From: Roseimaritima multifibrata
Lineage (GTDB): Bacteria; Planctomycetota; Planctomycetia; Pirellulales; Pirellulaceae
Direction: 5' to 3'
Assembly: GCF_007741495.1 (NCBI RefSeq)
Contig: NZ_CP036262.1
Span: 3,224,001 to 3,288,000 of the forward strand
Length of the DNA: 64,000 nucleotides
In this document: positions 42,768 to 55,522 of the stretch, piece after piece
How the letters are laid out: each line of letters begins with the position of its first letter
How positions within the stretch are numbered: the first letter of the stretch is position 1
The notes under the pieces: generated by a model
What the model was told of the DNA's origin: nothing
Database searches by the model: none
Seen by the model: the letters and a program-made list of their open reading frames with translations, nothing else
Translations under genes and position numbers: made by a program

Positions 42768-44360
42768 TTATTGAGAGGTCGCACGGAGCCGAGTCACTAT
42801 CGCGGAAGGACCTTTCCGATGGACCAGGTCTTTGTCCAGCGGATTTAGGTCTTTGTAGTACTGATGGAGCGATTCACGCTGTTCACTTGCGTCGGCCGAT
42901 TCCTGTTGTGCATCAAGTGCCAGCACTAGGTAAGACAATGCCAAGGTTTGGAATACAGGCTGTAGCTGACCATCCTTGAGGATGTCCCGCATCAGTTTTT
43001 CCGATGCCTTCCATTCGCCTCTTTGCTGATAAAGCCTAGCAAGTTGAAGTTTGGCTTTGAGCGCGTATTCGCGGTTCGATTCACTTTCGCTGGGCGGATG
43101 TAATTCCCAAACCGCTTTCCATGCGGATGGTTGATCAACACTGGCCGCTTCCAAAAACTGGGCGGTTGCAGAATCCTTTACGGTCACCTGAAAAGAATCG
43201 GCTGCCAGCAGTTGGCGGATGGATGGCGGAGACCAACTGGCAGCAAATGCGGCTCCACTTAGCAGTCCGATCAGTGGCAATAGCCACAGTATCAGATTCC
43301 GCCAAACCGTGGTCCGCTGGTAGTTGGCGTGACTGTCGACCGCATACTGAAGCGCCATAGAAGCGGAGAGCTGGATCGTTGATTGGGAAAGCGATGACGC
43401 TTGATTGGTAACCCCCATTCGGATCGCTTCGGAAAGCTGTTGAGGCGTTTGGAAGCGACCTTCTGGATCTTTGCAAAGAAGCTTTTCAACGATGGTTACA
43501 AGCCAATTTGGCAAATCGTCACTGGCTCGACCGGCAATCAGACTTGGCGGGGCTTCGTGCAAGTGTTTTACTGCCATCGCAAGTGCATCATCCGCTTCAA
43601 ATGGAGGCCGACCGGTCAGCAGGTGAAACATTGTGACTCCTAGGGAGTACATGTCACTGCGGATATCAACCGCTTTCCCTTGAACCTGTTCGGGGCTCAT
43701 GTAACGAGGGGTCCCCATCGTCAACCCGACTTGGGTTAGTTCGGTCACCCCATCGCCCCCTTGCATCCGTGCCAGCCCGAAATCGGCGACTTTGATTTCG
43801 CCGCGATTGCTGACCATCACGTTTTCTGGCTTGATGTCGCGGTGAGTGATGTTGGCATCGGCGGCTGCCGACAGGGCCTCGGTGACGCCGATCAAAATCT
43901 TGATCCCATCGACAACCGAAAACGCCCCTTCCCGTTCCAGCTGTTCGCGAAGGTTGCGCCCGTCGACAAACTCTTGCACGATGTAGTGATGGGAATTCTG
44001 TTCCCCGACTTCAAATACCTGCACGATATTCGCGTGAGACAACCTTGCCACCGCACGAGCTTCGCGGCGGAAGCGTTCGACGTATTTGGCGTCTCTCGAA
44101 AGATCGCGGCGCAGTACCTTGATCGCAACTTGCCTACCCAGCGAAATCTGTTGGGCGACGTAGACGTCGGCCATCCCACCACGGCCAAGCCGGCGGAGGA
44201 TTTGATAATCACCGAGTAGTTGCCCGGTAAGTTCCACACTTCCGTTTTCGTCCTGCGGACTTTTCGGAGGCTCTGCCCTCAATGGCGCATGTTCCGGGGT
44301 GACTCCCTTTTCCGGCTGATTGGGGGAGGACCCTTTAGGGTGATCTTGAGAATCGGTCAT
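42768..44360 (-). CDS. PknB-type Ser/Thr protein kinase with one TM segment
   Basis: 530 residues from the ATG at 44360; the longer upstream frame overlaps larE and is rejected. Kinase domain (50-315): GRGGMADVY P-loop, catalytic K81, HRDIKPEN (D175), DFG 193-195, GTPRYMSPEQ activation segment. A transmembrane helix (about 354-376, LILWLLPLIGLLSGAAFAAS) is followed by an outside helical domain of 150 residues with TPR-like cadence (AKLQLARLYQQRGEWKASEK). The start overlaps the larE stop by ATGA. Likely a membrane receptor-type kinase; target unknown. Confidence 0.93.
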   Translation of the reverse strand: MTDSQDHPKGSSPNQPEKGVTPEHAPLRAEPPKSPQDENGSVELTGQLLGDYQILRRLGRGGMADVYVAQQISLGRQVAIKVLRRDLSRDAKYVERFRREARAVARLSHANIVQVFEVGEQNSHHYIVQEFVDGRNLREQLEREGAFSVVDGIKILIGVTEALSAAADANITHRDIKPENVMVSNRGEIKVADFGLARMQGGDGVTELTQVGLTMGTPRYMSPEQVQGKAVDIRSDMYSLGVTMFHLLTGRPPFEADDALAMAVKHLHEAPPSLIAGRASDDLPNWLVTIVEKLLCKDPEGRFQTPQQLSEAIRMGVTNQASSLSQSTIQLSASMALQYAVDSHANYQRTTVWRNLILWLLPLIGLLSGAAFAASWSPPSIRQLLAADSFQVTVKDSATAQFLEAASVDQPSAWKAVWELHPPSESESNREYALKAKLQLARLYQQRGEWKASEKLMRDILKDGQLQPVFQTLALSYLVLALDAQQESADASEQRESLHQYYKDLNPLDKDLVHRKGPSAIVTRLRATSQ

Positions 44361-45265
44361 TCGGCCGCCGATTGGTGAGAGTCCAGGGACGATGGGGGCT
44401 TCGCAGCGGGAGGCGTGATTGCGACAACCTGATTTAGATTTCCGCTCCGGAAGCCTTCCATATCGACTGTTACGAATGAAAAGCCGATTTGTTTCAGGGC
44501 TTGAACCGTCTTCTGCCATCCTTCCGATTCTAGCAGTTGTGGCAACTGGCGATGGGCAATTTCGATCCGTGCCAAATTGTCCGCGTGGATTCGGACTCGC
44601 AGTGGAGAAAACCCTTTCGCCGCGAGAAACGTTTCGGCTTGTTCCACCATTTTTAGACGCTCGGGGGTCACTTCCACTCCGTAGGCAATTCGGCTGGAAA
44701 GGCAGGGGGACGCTGGAGCATCCCAAACCGATAGTCCCCAGTAAATCGCCAGCTGCCGGACGCCTCGTTTGTTGATCCCCAGATCGGCTAACGGTGTCCG
44801 TACGGCGACTTCACGCCCCGCTTCGATACCGGGACGGTGGTCCCCAAGGTCATCGGAGTTCGTTCCCGAAATGATGATTTCTGTTTGATTTTCTTTCGCG
44901 ATATCACGAAGTCGCCGATACAACGTTTCTTTACAAAAGTAGCACCGTTGTTTGTCATTGCGGATGTATTCCGGACGGTCGGTTTCACTGGTAGCGACCG
45001 TCAGGTGCTGGATCCCGATTTGTCGTGCAACGTCGCGAGCGATTCGCAACTGCTTTGCGGACAGGCTTGGGCTGACCGCGGTGACCGCGATCGCCGATTC
45101 AGGCAAGACACGTGCCGCGGCCGCGGCAACGACCGCGCTGTCGACTCCACCGGAAAACGCAATGATGCATTTCCGATAGGTCGAAATATGTCTACACAAT
45201 TTCTTCGCGATCACCGCGACGGATTCGGCAGAGTGAGAAGCGGACTGCGAAGGAGAAATCGTCAC
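44357..45265 (-). CDS. larE: LarE-type ATP-dependent sulfur transferase
   Basis: 302 residues, GTG start. PP-loop SGGVDSA (38-44), AVSPSLSAKQ, NDKQRCYFCKETLY and ASPCLSSRIAYG are LarE signatures. Three cysteines (C108, C111 and C188) match those used either as a sacrificial sulfur donor or, in [4Fe-4S]-type LarE, to hold a cluster. LarE builds the pincer-type nickel cofactor of lactate racemase-like enzymes with LarB and LarC. No larA, larB or larC is in the window. Its last codons overlap the kinase start (ATGA), so the two genes are translationally coupled. Confidence 0.92.
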   Translation of the reverse strand: MTISPSQSASHSAESVAVIAKKLCRHISTYRKCIIAFSGGVDSAVVAAAAARVLPESAIAVTAVSPSLSAKQLRIARDVARQIGIQHLTVATSETDRPEYIRNDKQRCYFCKETLYRRLRDIAKENQTEIIISGTNSDDLGDHRPGIEAGREVAVRTPLADLGINKRGVRQLAIYWGLSVWDAPASPCLSSRIAYGVEVTPERLKMVEQAETFLAAKGFSPLRVRIHADNLARIEIAHRQLPQLLESEGWQKTVQALKQIGFSFVTVDMEGFRSGNLNQVVAITPPAAKPPSSLDSHQSAAE

Positions 45266-46597: not shown

Positions 46598-49500
46598 TTA
46601 TTCGTCACCCAAAAGGGCCAACGTATCGTCCACGGCACTTGGATCGATTTCCGATGTCCCTTCTTCTGTCAGATAGGTCTCCGCGGTCGCAGGCTGTGTG
46701 CCCGGTTCTGCGACATCGGCCATCGCAGAGTCGATTGCGTCGGTTCGCTGCTGAGCAATGGATGCCAAACTGCTAGACGTTTCAGGATTGTTGACGGAAA
46801 TCGATTGGTTTTGACCCAAATTGACCGTCGGAACGACTCCGTCCCCAAGGCTGGCGGAGCTTTCTCCTTGTGGCTGAGATTCGCCGCTTGCCAATTGGGT
46901 ACTGTCGGAGGTGGCGGCAGCGGTCGTTGCAAAGGCTTGTTGCAGATTGACTCGCAGCAGACGAACGTCATCGGAAAGGCCACGCACTTCATGATCGCTG
47001 GTGTCGCTGTCGATGTCGACCACTTGATGAACGCGTGTCCCGGAATCGTCGGTGACCGCGATATCGATTTCGGTCCCATCATCATTCATCGTAATGACCG
47101 GGTTGGTCAAATCTGAATTCTGTCCTGTAGGGAGCACAAACAGGCTTGTCTCTCCGGGAGAAACCGCCGCGAAGGTTCCTCTTGCCGGCGCCAAAGCCGC
47201 GGTGTCACGAAGCGACAGGAACGAAGGATGAATCTCTCCGATGAAGATCGCTTCCGCTTCACGGTCGCCGTCGGCTTCCGCACTTTCGAATGCAATCTGC
47301 TGAGCATCTTCGTTGCCAATCAAAAATGGAATCGCTGGGACTTCGACTTGGTAGCTGCCCGGCGCTTGGTCGGCAAAAGTGATCAAACCTGTGTTTGGGT
47401 CCGCGACTGCCGATACGCTAACGGAGTCGCCGAATTGAGTCGTGCCGGTCAACTGAGCCGTTAGAATCAGCCCACTATTCGGTAATGGCGCGGAGAAGAC
47501 GAAATCCCTGGGGATGTAGTCCAAGACCGAGACGGTGATCACGCCCGTTGCGGTCAGGCCGCCCGCATCGGTAACGGTGTAGGAAATCGTTTCGGTTCCG
47601 ACAAAACTTGCTGAGGACGGAGTGTATTGAACGGATTTGCCGTCCGCAGCGATCGATGCGGTCCCGCCGCCAGATGGAGTCCCAACGCTGGTGATCGTCA
47701 CTACCTCGCTGGCACCATCGACGTTCGTCCCCGCATCGGAGGGGACGAAAACGGTCACTCCGCTTCCGCCTTTGACGATGCTTGTCGTTACATTGCCCCC
47801 CGGAGGCGCGTCGTTGGAACCGGTCACGGTAAAGGTGATGGTCCCTACTGCGGTCGCCCCGTTGGAATCGGTGATGGTGTACGAAATATGTTCCGATCCG
47901 AAGAAGTTGGCTGCGGGAGCATAAACAACTCGCGTACCGTCGCTCGACAACGAAACCGAACTTCCGTTGGAAGAAGATCCGACCGACGTGAGCGAAAAGG
48001 TTTCGTCGGGGTCGTCGTTAGAATCGTTTGCCAGGACGTCAAATTCCGCCGCTGCGGCATCTTCTTGAACGGTGAAGGCATCATCGACAGCCGTCGGAGG
48101 CGGGTTGGCGGTCGACACGCTGACCACGATGGAAGCCTGGCTGGTAAGCGTTCCGTCTGAAATCGTGTAGGTGAAAGTATCGCCACCGCTGAAGTCCGCG
48201 GGCGGAGTGTAAAGAATCGCTCCGCCACCCGCTTCAATCGTGATCGTCCCGCCGGCGGTAGAAGTACCGACGGCCGTGATCGTCAAGGTTTCACCCGTAT
48301 CGGGCAGGCCCGAATCGTTGCTAAGCGGGGTCAGGCGATTGGCGGTTGAATTGCGGTCGACAGTAAACGTGTCGGGGACCGCGGACGGTGGGTCGTTAAC
48401 CGCCGTTACCGAAATGGTTGCCGTCGCGGTTTGCTCGACTCCATTGGAATCTTGCACGACATACGTCAAGGTTTCCGTTCCCGAAAAATCGGATGCAGGC
48501 GTGTACTGAACATTGCCGTTCACCACGCTTGCGGAACCGCCTGAATCGGGAGTGCCGACACTTTTCAGACTTAGCGTTTCGCTTCCTGAATGGATGACAT
48601 CATTTGCAACGACATCTAAGCTGTTGTTGGTGCTGTCTTCGGTGACCGTGAAGGAATCGTTTATGGCACTGAATGACGCGCTGATGGCCAAACTTACGCT
48701 GCCGAAGGCGACCTCATCAAATTCGATATCGTCTTCTTGGTTTAGCAACAAAAAGTCGGTTCCGTTGGTGTCCGGTTGGTTGGACGCAAACGTAATCTGC
48801 CCACTCTGTTTTGCGGTAAAGCGGATCGTGGCAATTTCTAATAGCGGCGGGTTAACGACGTTCAAGCGGAAACCACCAAGCTCGTCGATGATTCCATCAC
48901 CGATCGTGCCCTGTACCAATGTAGGGACCAATTCCGTGTTGAATGTGATCGGGTTATCGGCGATCGGTTCCGCTAAAGCACTGTCGAAGGTGATGTCGGT
49001 GTAGGCACCAAACACGCCGTCGGCGAACGCATTGGAACGATTGTCGTTCGCGCTAAAATGAAGTAGGAAGTCCTGCCCCGGTGCCACCGAACTGATCGCG
49101 TTTCCGTCAAGGTCGGTCACCGTCAGGACAATCGACCCGATGGCCGCCGATTGGACTTCCACTTGGAAAGCTTGCGTTCGTGTATTCCCCGCACTGTCGG
49201 TCAGCGTAACCGCAAAAGACTGGCTTCCAAGTTGAGATTCTGTTGGAGTCCATTCGATTAAACCGGTCGCGGAATCGATGATCGCTCCGGTGGGGGCGGA
49301 TGCTAAACCGTAAATCAATCCGGTTCCCTCTTCGGGATGCACAAGGTTGGCGGTGTAGAGCGATCCAACGTTGGCGGATTGAGGGATCGCGGCCGTGATC
49401 GTCGCCGGTGAGACGTTGTCGAACACCAGATTCAGGGCCGGGCTTTCGGCACTGTTGACGTTGTCACTGCCCCGTTGCCGAGCGGTGACGCTGTAGTTGC

Positions 49501-51412
49501 CGTTCCCAAGAGTTTCGAAGTTCTGCGTCGTGATCGAGACGGTGTCGCTGGTTGCCGATCCAATGCCGACGACCGTGCCGTTAACCAACAATTCAACAGT
49601 CGATCCAGGGCTGACGCCCGTGACGTTAAACGTCAGCGACGATGCGCCGGTGACGTTGTCGGTTGAACTGGTTCCGGTATCGCTGGCAGACGCAAGGTCG
49701 ACCGACGTTGGTGCTCCGGTTGAAAACGAAACCGAAAGAAATTGGATGTCGATCGGAGTCGAATTGACGGTTGGCTGGGTCGCGTTGGCGTCCGGACGGA
49801 CGGCGACACCAAGGTTGACAGTTCCTGAAAAACCGGCGGGTGGAGTGACGGTTACCAACCCGGTGGCGCTTACCGAGACGGTCGATCCGGAGGTGTCGGT
49901 TGCATCAATTTCCGCGATGTATTCGACCGCGTCCGCTTCAAGGTCGGTTGAGGAAAGCTGGAACTGCGCGGGGGTTCCTTGCGGGGCGACAACTTCAGGG
50001 ATGTCGGCGAGGTAAGGTTGCGCATTGTACGTGTCCGCACCGACCGTCACGTTCACAACTTGACTGTACGAATTGCCGTCGGAATCGGTCACTGTAAAAG
50101 TAACCGTGGTGCTACCGGTTGAATTCCCGGTCGGGCGAAGCATGACGACCGAGTTTTCGGTATCGGTGAAAATGGTCGCTGATTCGAAAACGACCGGAGT
50201 GTCCGGCAATTTGTCGGCATTGACCGATACCCGGCTGATCCCTTCACGAACCTTTTCGCCTTCAACCAGCTGACCGAAAACGGAGTGGTTGAAGTCCAGT
50301 TGTTGGGCGTTCCCCTCCAGGATAAAGAACTGGCTGTCGTTGGTGTCGTCGGTCGATTTCGCGTAGGACAAAACCCCTCGCGTTGTGTGCTGCAATTCAG
50401 GATGGTACTGGTCGTCGAAATCGCCGAGGGTGGAACCGCCGGTTCCGTTGCCATTGGGGTCGCCACCTTGAAGGACGAAGGTGTTGTCGACGCGATGGAA
50501 TGTCAGGCCATCATAAAATCCTGACTGAGCAAGTTCGATGACTCGCGAAGCGGGGCGTTCGGCTCGCTGTTCGAACAGCTCGAAGACCATTTCGCCATAG
50601 CCTTCCACGTTCAGTCGAAGACTGCGGTTCCCTTGCAGGACGATCGCTTCCAGCATGTCCGGATCGGCTACCGTTGCTGTCACGGTCAGCGGTCCGCCGT
50701 TGGGGTCGTAAGCATCGATGGGAACGTGAATCGGTGATCCGATGGCGACCGTTTGGTCTTCAACGTTGGCAAACGTTGGGTCTTCCGATTGAGGGATCGT
50801 GATTCCCGCATGGTCTGCGATCTGTTGCAACGTTAACAGGCCGGTTACCCGAGTCTGAGCATCAAAATCCCAGGTTGGATACACGGTGATCCCGTTTGCA
50901 GTGGCAACGGCATTGGGTTGTTGGCTGCCGTCGGTGACTTCAACAAACGGCAATTCGTTCTTGCCATCTTCGAACAGTTCTTTCTGAGCCGTACAAACTT
51001 CACACCAGTCGGCACCGTAGAAAACGACCCCTTGGTCTTTCAACAGTTTCGCAAAAGCGACCAAATCAACTGCTGGTTCGCCCTGAGCCGTTGAGTTGAC
51101 GATGGACAATTGATCACCAGAGGAGCCGTCGTTCTGGTCGGTTTCTCCAATTCCGTTGGTCGAGAATAGTTCCACATCCCCTGCCAGCATCTGGCGCCCT
51201 TCAAGGGACTCAAGACGCAGGCCACGGCGTTTCGTTTCACCACTCGTACTGGTCGAATTACCCATCAGCAGGCGGCGCAAAAACGAGCGGCCACGGCTTC
51301 CAGCGGAATTGGAGCTAGCGAAATTGGACTTGGCGACCTGGGAGTTTCGTGGCGTCTGTGTCACGCTGAAAACCTGCAGAAAAAGGACTCGGTTTGGGCT
51401 GAATACCATCAT
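46598..51412 (-). CDS. Giant surface protein: thioredoxin-cyclophilin-cadherin
   Basis: 1604 residues. LESLEGRQMLAGD (67-79) is the N-terminal targeting motif of planctomycete surface proteins. Then: thioredoxin-like domain (114-205, CEVC at 137-140, GITVYPTWDF); cyclophilin-type peptidyl-prolyl isomerase (270-415, FHRVDN with catalytic-type R307, GGDPNGNGTGG, SQFFIL); Ig-like beta domains (420-755); a cohesin-like domain (758-910); about four cadherin-like/VCBS repeats (from 915, with VTEDSTNN, TYTISDGTL, ISYTVTDAGG); an acidic end. Probably exported and surface-bound, acting on folding of extracellular partners. A fusion of this type is unusual. Gene overlaps nothing; an RlmI-like gene follows. 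Confidence 0.9.
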   Translation of the reverse strand: MMVFSPNRVLFLQVFSVTQTPRNSQVAKSNFASSNSAGSRGRSFLRRLLMGNSTSTSGETKRRGLRLESLEGRQMLAGDVELFSTNGIGETDQNDGSSGDQLSIVNSTAQGEPAVDLVAFAKLLKDQGVVFYGADWCEVCTAQKELFEDGKNELPFVEVTDGSQQPNAVATANGITVYPTWDFDAQTRVTGLLTLQQIADHAGITIPQSEDPTFANVEDQTVAIGSPIHVPIDAYDPNGGPLTVTATVADPDMLEAIVLQGNRSLRLNVEGYGEMVFELFEQRAERPASRVIELAQSGFYDGLTFHRVDNTFVLQGGDPNGNGTGGSTLGDFDDQYHPELQHTTRGVLSYAKSTDDTNDSQFFILEGNAQQLDFNHSVFGQLVEGEKVREGISRVSVNADKLPDTPVVFESATIFTDTENSVVMLRPTGNSTGSTTVTFTVTDSDGNSYSQVVNVTVGADTYNAQPYLADIPEVVAPQGTPAQFQLSSTDLEADAVEYIAEIDATDTSGSTVSVSATGLVTVTPPAGFSGTVNLGVAVRPDANATQPTVNSTPIDIQFLSVSFSTGAPTSVDLASASDTGTSSTDNVTGASSLTFNVTGVSPGSTVELLVNGTVVGIGSATSDTVSITTQNFETLGNGNYSVTARQRGSDNVNSAESPALNLVFDNVSPATITAAIPQSANVGSLYTANLVHPEEGTGLIYGLASAPTGAIIDSATGLIEWTPTESQLGSQSFAVTLTDSAGNTRTQAFQVEVQSAAIGSIVLTVTDLDGNAISSVAPGQDFLLHFSANDNRSNAFADGVFGAYTDITFDSALAEPIADNPITFNTELVPTLVQGTIGDGIIDELGGFRLNVVNPPLLEIATIRFTAKQSGQITFASNQPDTNGTDFLLLNQEDDIEFDEVAFGSVSLAISASFSAINDSFTVTEDSTNNSLDVVANDVIHSGSETLSLKSVGTPDSGGSASVVNGNVQYTPASDFSGTETLTYVVQDSNGVEQTATATISVTAVNDPPSAVPDTFTVDRNSTANRLTPLSNDSGLPDTGETLTITAVGTSTAGGTITIEAGGGAILYTPPADFSGGDTFTYTISDGTLTSQASIVVSVSTANPPPTAVDDAFTVQEDAAAAEFDVLANDSNDDPDETFSLTSVGSSSNGSSVSLSSDGTRVVYAPAANFFGSEHISYTITDSNGATAVGTITFTVTGSNDAPPGGNVTTSIVKGGSGVTVFVPSDAGTNVDGASEVVTITSVGTPSGGGTASIAADGKSVQYTPSSASFVGTETISYTVTDAGGLTATGVITVSVLDYIPRDFVFSAPLPNSGLILTAQLTGTTQFGDSVSVSAVADPNTGLITFADQAPGSYQVEVPAIPFLIGNEDAQQIAFESAEADGDREAEAIFIGEIHPSFLSLRDTAALAPARGTFAAVSPGETSLFVLPTGQNSDLTNPVITMNDDGTEIDIAVTDDSGTRVHQVVDIDSDTSDHEVRGLSDDVRLLRVNLQQAFATTAAATSDSTQLASGESQPQGESSASLGDGVVPTVNLGQNQSISVNNPETSSSLASIAQQRTDAIDSAMADVAEPGTQPATAETYLTEEGTSEIDPSAVDDTLALLGDE

Positions 51413-53656: not shown

Positions 53657-55522
53657 ATGAACCGCGCTTCGTTGTTTCGATTTATGTCAGTCTTCGTTGT
53701 CGTTTTGTCGGCGGCAATTATTGCCCCAGGAACGGCTGCACAAGCCCAGGGCAGTGGAAAGGCTTCCAATCCTGAAAACTTGAGCGAATCGATCGGCCCA
53801 CTGTTGTCGATTCTCTCGGGCAATTCCGAAACGTTTGCAATCACCGCCGGAATCGATGTTCAAATCGATGACCGAATTCAACACGTAGACGCTCGATTGG
53901 TCCGCTTTGACAGCGAATCTTTCGACCTTCAACTTACGCACTCCGACTACAGTTTGCAAATTCGTCGACGTGCGAATGAGACCGCCTTTGCACTTCCTCA
54001 CCATAAAGTTGTGTTTACGGGGGCTGGAAAGCTCGTCGGCGACGACCAGCTGGCACCGGGGGGGATGGCGGCAAGACTAATTGGATCGGGATCGGTCGTG
54101 GCCTTGTACGCGCCGGTGATCCTTGGGGGAGACCCCGCGGTCGTGTCGCAGGTGTTGACCAATTTAATCGACACCGAATTCGATTCGAGCCAGAACCGAT
54201 GGCAATTCGATGACGATTTCTCGATGCAATTTAGCAATCAAAATCGAAATGTCGCGATTCAAGTGGATGGCGAACACTCGGCGGTTGTCAAAATTGAAAC
54301 CAATCTGCCGGCAATGTCCGACGTCAATGACTGGCCCGGATATCAAATGGTTTCGTTGGAACGAAAAGAGATCGAGCGAACGCTTGCCCGAGGCGTCCGT
54401 CGAGCGATGGAGATTCTGCTTCCCTCACGCCAATTGACCAACCCGCCAGAACAGAACAAGACGGTTGAACATGGAGAATTGCGTTGGCAGGACGGGCAGC
54501 GTGTGGTGCTACTGCATGGGACGCCGGAGGAAGTTGGGTTTGCCCACGGGCAGTTGTTGAACAAAGAAGCACAACGGTGTATCGATTCCGTTCTCTATAC
54601 CTTTGGGACGGTCAATACGATCCGCAACGGCACCTGGTTTCGCAATGATTTAGATCAGGCCTATCAGAGGCTCGCTCCTTTCATTCCAGAGGACCACCAA
54701 GCCGAAACGTTTGCGTTTGCTAAGGCGATGGAACTGGAACCCGAAACGGCTCAGGCGATCAACGTCTTTCCTGAATTGTTTCATTGCAGTGGATTTGCTC
54801 TGTTCGGTAAGGCAACGGTCGACGGAAAACTACTGCATGGGCGTGTTCTGGACTATATGACAACGATTGGACTGCAAGATTCGGCGACCACATTTATCGT
54901 TTCGATCGATGGGAAGCACGGGTTCGCGAATGTTGGTTATGCCGGATTCATTGGTAGCGTCAGCGGGATGAATGACCAGTCGATTTCGTTGGGTGAAATG
55001 GGAGGTCATGGAGAGGGCCAATGGGATGGTGTTCCGATGGCGACCTTGATGCGGCGTGCCCTGGAAGAATGCAGTACGCTGCAGGAAGTCCAACAGCTTT
55101 GGGAAACCAATCCACGGACCTGTGAATATTATTATGTTTTCGCCGACGGTAAGACCAACGAGGCGGTGGGCGTGATGGCGACTCCTGATTTGTTAAAATT
55201 CGTCCAGCCTGGTGAGGCGCACGAACTGCTGGGAGAAGGGATCGAAGACGCGGTCGTTTTGTCAGCGGGAGGAAGGCTTAAAACGTTGCGTCAACGCGTG
55301 CAGGAAAAGTACGGTAAGGTCGATGTCGACGTTGCCAAGTGGTTGATGAGCCGACCGGTGGCGATGTCTTCGAACTTGCATAACGTTTTGTTTGTTCCTC
55401 AAGACCTGATCTTTTATGTCGCGAACGCCAGCCATTCCGAACCGGCTGCGAACCGCCCCTATGTAAAAATGGATTTGGAGGCGTTGCTGAAATCGATGCC
55501 ATCCCCGACGCTTTCTCCGTAA
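53657..55522 (+). CDS. C45-type autoproteolytic hydrolase with extra N-domain
   Basis: 621 residues with a signal sequence (FMSVFVVVLSAAIIAPGTAA). Residues about 40-275 form a beta-rich domain of no family I recognise. The rest matches the peptidase C45/penicillin-acyltransferase-like Ntn hydrolases: VVLLHGTPEEVGFAHGQLL, LFHCSGFALFG (C377 would become the N-terminal nucleophile after self-cleavage), DGKLLHGRVLDYMTT, GFANVGYAGFIGSVSGMND. It should cleave an amide or acyl bond outside the cytoplasm. The alpha/beta hydrolase gene 75 bases on may be co-transcribed. Confidence 0.88.
   Translation: MNRASLFRFMSVFVVVLSAAIIAPGTAAQAQGSGKASNPENLSESIGPLLSILSGNSETFAITAGIDVQIDDRIQHVDARLVRFDSESFDLQLTHSDYSLQIRRRANETAFALPHHKVVFTGAGKLVGDDQLAPGGMAARLIGSGSVVALYAPVILGGDPAVVSQVLTNLIDTEFDSSQNRWQFDDDFSMQFSNQNRNVAIQVDGEHSAVVKIETNLPAMSDVNDWPGYQMVSLERKEIERTLARGVRRAMEILLPSRQLTNPPEQNKTVEHGELRWQDGQRVVLLHGTPEEVGFAHGQLLNKEAQRCIDSVLYTFGTVNTIRNGTWFRNDLDQAYQRLAPFIPEDHQAETFAFAKAMELEPETAQAINVFPELFHCSGFALFGKATVDGKLLHGRVLDYMTTIGLQDSATTFIVSIDGKHGFANVGYAGFIGSVSGMNDQSISLGEMGGHGEGQWDGVPMATLMRRALEECSTLQEVQQLWETNPRTCEYYYVFADGKTNEAVGVMATPDLLKFVQPGEAHELLGEGIEDAVVLSAGGRLKTLRQRVQEKYGKVDVDVAKWLMSRPVAMSSNLHNVLFVPQDLIFYVANASHSEPAANRPYVKMDLEALLKSMPSPTLSP

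Follow-up and report, generated by a model that had tools for sequence, protein, structure and literature searches.

What is a protein that carries two folding-related catalytic domains, a thioredoxin and a cyclophilin, doing on a chain otherwise built for adhesion? The question is raised by an open reading frame in a 64,000-nucleotide stretch of Roseimaritima multifibrata DNA, referred to here as the window. We found that the architecture is real, widespread and built of known domains. Our best single guess for its role, held at slightly less than even confidence, is that of a foldase acting outside the cytoplasm on proteins of the surface or wall. Below we describe the layout of the protein and the state of its active-site residues, and weigh this reading against three others.

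Layout of the window protein

The earlier note described one 1604-residue protein that fuses thioredoxin-like, cyclophilin, cohesin-like and cadherin-like modules behind a planctomycete surface motif, and all of these parts were found in the frame (Table 1). A chance reading frame is excluded because relatives align over most of its length: 38 of 60 align with it in a single stretch longer than 1000 residues, by a hand count over loci chosen for spread among the matches listed, not at random. The N-terminal motif, Planc_extracel, scores 22.0 bits (E 1.2e-4), just below the Pfam cut-off of 25.5. A strict pattern recovers it in 28 of 61 frames, the window's among them, and looser variants were seen by eye in many of the remaining frames. 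PMC8567305 describes its consensus as a presumed export signal of a new type. A conserved stretch, AEGE..PD, lies directly before the thioredoxin domain in the window protein and in the consensus of alignment A1.

Table 1. Features of the window protein, with positions in the window
Feature	Positions	Strand	Basis or remark
Whole ORF	46598..51412	-	1604 aa, ATG start
Planctomycete extracellular motif Planc_extracel (PF07595), residues 61-79	51176..51232	-	Pfam
VKOR-type thioredoxin fold, residues 105-210	50783..51100	-	PDB sequence match, profile, model
CEVC, Cys137 and Cys140	50993..51004	-	YPTW proline is residue 179
First half of Ig domain (Big_9), 4 strands, residues ~211-257	50642..50782	-	model, joined-flank Pfam
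Cyclophilin nested in Ig domain, residues ~258-418	50159..50641	-	Pfam, PDB match, model
Second half of split Ig domain, 3 strands, residues ~419-461	50030..50158	-	model, joined-flank Pfam
More Ig-like domains (Big_13, He_PIG), residues 462-751	49160..50029	-	Pfam
Cohesin-fold domain, residues 752-920	48653..49159	-	model, fold comparison, Pfam in relatives
Tandem-95/cadherin-like repeats, residues ~921-1295	47528..48652	-	Pfam; NF012211
Conserved C-terminal region, residues 1296-1490	46943..47527	-	weak likeness to SdrD and NOMO2 domains
Tail, residues 1491-1604	46601..46942	-	aligned by some relatives only

The rest of the chain consists of adhesive beta-sandwiches, as the same note had it. 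Big_9, Cadherin_5, Cadherin_4, He_PIG and Big_13 all score above their Pfam cut-offs, Big_9 and Cadherin_5 in seven stretches each, and the tandem-95 repeat profile NF012211 reaches 182.6 bits against a cut-off of 90. The cohesin-like module is recognised by fold, although Pfam finds no cohesin in the window's own segment. A model of the domain from 44 rows (pLDDT 93.2) superimposes on cohesin 2vo8 with Z 14.6 and 2.5 Å over 131 residues. PF00963 matches 8 of the 44 rows of the segment alignment at E ≤1 (best 4.5e-8), and a sequence search of the PDB with alignment A2 returned no cohesin at E ≤1. The window genome contains 20 Dockerin_1 matches, which are possible partners only.

Active sites of the cyclophilin and thioredoxin domains

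The cyclophilin, previously placed at residues 270–415, is matched by Pro_isomerase (PF00160) at residues 265–411 with E 3.7e-35 and 121.9 bits, against a cut-off of 21.7. An AlphaFold2 model of the head (residues 105–467, 49 rows; pLDDT 93.4, pTM 0.91) contains the cyclophilin fold, with Z 27.0 to 2fu0, and its best 50 PDB fold matches are cyclophilins only, at Z of about 24–27. In an alignment to human CypA, R307, F312, Q315, F363, L372 and H376 correspond to R55, F60, Q63, F113, L122 and H126, which places the active-site Arg, Phe and Gln (R307, F312 and Q315). All five of R55, F60, Q63, F113 and H126 are intact in the window protein. The five are likewise intact in 49 of the 53 family copies that have a thioredoxin domain and in 42 of 45 CxxC copies. 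The exceptions have Tyr for H126 (L066, L067 and L085, the last also with Tyr for F113) or a cyclophilin split by an insertion (L065). Lys occupies the position of CypA N102 in 61 of 62 rows of the alignment, and the W121 position is variable. The insertions that split this domain in L065 (372–483) and L071 (243–347) are about 100–110 residues long. Two other copies, L063 and L068, contain a further cyclophilin, degenerate and located downstream; an N-terminal segment of theirs, DVN.D..V...DAL, resembles dockerin.

The cyclophilin occupies about residues 154–314 of the head model, with four strands before it and three after. When the window flanks were joined without the cyclophilin (108 residues), the Big_9 profile aligned over positions 3–89 of 89 with 33.8 bits (cut-off 23.6). 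Taken separately, the first half gave no match and the second 22.1 bits. Since the joined flanks make one complete Big_9 and the halves fall below the cut-off, the cyclophilin is an insertion inside an Ig-like domain and not a separate bead on the chain. With their flanks joined in the same way, L028, L040 and L081 score 36.1, 34.7 and 23.9 bits on this profile.

For the thioredoxin domain, Pfam gave no match to the window sequence itself. In a phmmer search of the PDB with a query starting at residue 101, residues 118–206 match 3kp8, the thioredoxin domain of a bacterial VKOR, at E 4.1e-12, and a 44-row profile of the domain matches it at E 8.7e-19. Pfam Thioredoxin_2 matches 23 of these 44 rows at E ≤0.01, the window's own row being without a match, and Pfam Thioredoxin matches 19. 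Because the best 50 fold matches of the head are all cyclophilins, the thioredoxin fold rests on sequence and on the model, in which the segment is predicted with high confidence. The thioredoxin-like domain assigned earlier to residues 114–205 therefore stands, and so does its intact CxxC, the CEVC of Cys137 and Cys140. Both checks named in the earlier note as able to refute it, on the thioredoxin fold and on the isomerase Arg, Phe and Gln, came out in its favour. The catalytic head as a whole is very likely folded.

The two cysteines are kept or lost together. Among 70 distinct thioredoxin domains (71 minus one duplicate, L020 being identical to L038), 53 have both, 17 have neither and none has a single one; six further CxxC loci (L146–L148, L246, L248 and L250) were kept out of the pooled counts. 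On the thioredoxin tree the state of the pair changes at least six times, at least four of these forced by starred branches. Loss as a pair argues that both cysteines work together. Both are absent from 8 of 53 family copies, and the CxxC is present in Roseiconus nitratireducens (L146), a Rubripirellula MAG (L147) and a Pirellula MAG (L148). The window protein has no cysteines besides those of CEVC, which means that its disulfide clients, if any, can only be other proteins. Similarly, 44 of 46 CxxC proteins have no further Cys from the thioredoxin domain to the frame end; across all 46, the 68,294 residues of these stretches include 6 additional Cys, four in L051 and two in L073. The copy at L031 has CPAC together with the five cyclophilin residues. 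Besides a long copy, genomes G098 and G059 each carry a short second one (L083 and L084, frames of 773 and 759 aa) in which both Cys are gone and the cyclophilin residues are intact.

Genus g73, of another family, provides the counterexample. In the nine g73 copies examined, both domains are still recognisable from the sequence, and all nine lack both thioredoxin Cys, with no Cys in the stretch read. The five cyclophilin residues are intact in one (L122) and broken in eight: F60 is Ala in the near-identical L124 and L125, and the other six are broken at several sites. Together with the eight Cys-less copies in the window's own family, this means that the fold can persist without catalysis, which cautions against reading enzyme activity from domain order and lends more weight to the nearly complete retention of the cyclophilin site within the window's family. 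The suggestion that activity is plausible hence holds for the window protein and for most of its family relatives, whose residues are intact, but not for every protein with the same domain order. From these residues, the head of the window protein is probably active.

These same copies speak for the alternative that survives best, in which the head has a structural or binding role, its thioredoxin and cyclophilin folds serving as the ligand-binding surfaces of an adhesin with catalysis residual. The adhesive repeats in the remainder of the chain would suit such a role. A scaffold, however, would need neither the full set of cyclophilin residues that nearly all family copies keep nor the strict pairing of the cysteines, and we consider this alternative rather unlikely.

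Distribution, redox partners and candidate clients

The N-terminal 418 residues, used as a query, match something in all 149 family genomes, ordinary cyclophilins counted. Both domains are covered in at least 89 of the 149, a lower bound counted by hand among the matches listed, which hold 97 such matches. Among 392 phylum genomes, a match to both domains occurs in 8 of 9 family members and 9 of 9 genomes of g73; the next best, G494, has the Ig-cyclophilin part only. Four more g73 genomes and two g421 genomes are listed and lie outside the active-site counts. The thioredoxin profile matches 52 of 297 class genomes, including four strong f102 ones from the same order. Matches better than E 1e-15 lie in frames of at least 759 aa, except for three short pieces at contig ends (one in G044, two in G082), which ties this thioredoxin type to long proteins in the 297-genome sample. 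In open-licence literature, no thioredoxin-cyclophilin fusion is described among the matches listed.

None of the six window neighbour genes tested recurs beside relatives, bar one 30% kinase match in L072, in a comparison that ignored frames opposite the coding strand (these filled the largest cluster). A clade of six loci (L056, L057, L059, L066, L067 and L085) encodes proteins of about 1150–1200 aa. In most of these proteins the motif is preceded by a hydrophobic segment close to the N terminus. The clade has its own flanking genes in 5–6 of the 6 loci, one of them encoding another motif-bearing protein. Elsewhere in the window, positions 44357–45265 (-) encode a LarE sulfur transferase (TIGR00268, 301 bits; cut-off 150). 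This frame overlaps a Ser/Thr kinase ORF when the latter is read at its longest, 42768–44726 (-); the kinase probably starts further in. A C45-family autoproteolytic acyltransferase (NF040521, above cut-off) lies at 53657–55522 (+).

VKOR was considered as an obligate redox partner and rejected. It occurs in 57 of the 149 family genomes, namely in 39 of the 89 carriers of both domains (among the matches listed) versus 18 of the 60 others (p 0.12), and a search of 30 VKOR frames, the window genome's included, with the thioredoxin query gave no match at E ≤10. The window genome has a single VKOR match (L005), an ORF of 212 aa that keeps CFLC and in which inspection by eye showed no loop cysteines. 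Similar CFLC frames of 220–263 aa occur at L095, L099, L102, L109, L112, L113 and L114, and longer VKOR frames with a second CxxC also occur.

A second alternative takes the CxxC as a surface reductase or redox sensor instead of a disulfide maker, with the cyclophilin acting separately. It is consistent with the two DsbD transmembrane matches in the window genome, where a search for Thioredoxin_4 (PF13462) found no match. It also fits the separability of the modules, as L075 has the thioredoxin with no cyclophilin match and L069–L072, L074, L081 and L082 have the cyclophilin with no thioredoxin match. The VKOR system, however, is an oxidising one, and the nearest solved relative of the thioredoxin domain belongs to it. 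We regard this alternative as improbable. Least probable, and in our judgement very doubtful, is that the cyclophilin serves its own protein and others like it, helping the proline-bearing Ig/cadherin repeats to fold after export, with the thioredoxin incidental: PP or PPP does occur in the repeat region at 1008, 1070, 1104 and 1203, and six of the seven copies with no thioredoxin match retain the cyclophilin residues (the seventh is split by an insertion), but the paired conservation of the Cys in a protein with no others is left unexplained.

For the favoured foldase, disulfide clients have to be sought outside the protein itself, which offers no Cys beyond its CxxC. Cysteine-rich YTV proteins are candidates. 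YTV proteins are described as cysteine-rich and present in wall preparations (PMC8567305) and a role in wall rigidity is suggested for them (PMC10632474); the wall is described as including a "protein sacculus with disulfide bonds" (PMC2754498), and peptidoglycan is reported in planctomycetes, against a purely protein wall (PMC4432640). The window genome has three YTV frames, with 59 Cys in 640 aa, 33 in 779 aa and 3 in 581 aa. Co-occurrence was uninformative as a test of a client role, YTV being found in 148 of the 149 family genomes. Set against the at least 89 with both domains, this figure indicates that YTV proteins probably manage without the thioredoxin-cyclophilin protein.

A putative surface foldase and its known relatives

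A foldase of this kind would be exported by its N-terminal planctomycete motif and retained in the envelope or matrix by the Ig/cadherin stalk and the cohesin-fold domain. Its VKOR-type thioredoxin domain may make, break or reshuffle disulfides, and the adjoining cyclophilin would speed proline isomerisation. The Ig domain that holds the inserted cyclophilin would tie the head together, and the likeliest disulfide clients would be the YTV-type wall proteins of the same cell. A more specific version, which we put forward as possible rather than probable, is a dedicated planctomycete surface foldase in which an exported disulfide catalyst and proline isomerase matures cysteine-rich wall proteins beyond the cytoplasmic membrane, with its cohesin anchoring it to dockerin-bearing envelope proteins, while the sister lineage has a non-catalytic, pseudo-enzyme head. 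Its relevance lies in the question of how the cysteine-rich proteins reported from planctomycete walls are made and cross-linked. A conserved surface-motif protein with both folding chemistries, alongside a lineage with dead sites and a kept fold, opens this question to direct genetic and biochemical testing. Whatever the role, the cyclophilin-in-Ig module and the keep-or-lose pairing of the Cys hold.

Several known systems share parts of this architecture. Planctomycete giant surface proteins with PF07595 have the N-terminal motif, length and Ig-like repeats in common with the window protein, and the part of the source that describes them mentions no thioredoxin or cyclophilin domain (PMC8567305). 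Cohesins (2vo8, 2jh2 and cellulosomal ones) head the best 50 fold matches of the cohesin-fold domain, at Z 14.6 to 10.5 and identities of about 9–16%, and the adhesin beta-sandwiches of SspB, PrgB and AspA, with TTHA1873, reach Z 10.7–11.1 to the same domain. The VKOR thioredoxin domain (3kp8, 3kp9 and 4nv2) is the best solved match to that of the window protein, and both have the CxxC and the YPTW proline. The two further Cys of 3kp8 (VEC.. and EC..) are absent from the window protein in the alignment, and its thioredoxin sits in a giant repeat protein with no fusion to the VKOR membrane domain. The PPIL1-group cyclophilins 9l5r_S and 2x7k and M. tuberculosis PpiA (1w74) superimpose on the window cyclophilin at Z 26–27 with an rmsd of 1.5–1.9 over 154–155 residues; 9l5r_S also matches by sequence at E 6.6e-30, with the catalytic residues common to both. 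Those three are single-domain cyclophilins, whereas the window cyclophilin is nested in an Ig domain of a surface-motif protein. Pneumococcal SlrA is a surface-exposed cyclophilin, a lipoprotein with one catalytic domain and without a thioredoxin. It shares with the predicted arrangement of the window protein an isomerase placed outside the cytoplasm.
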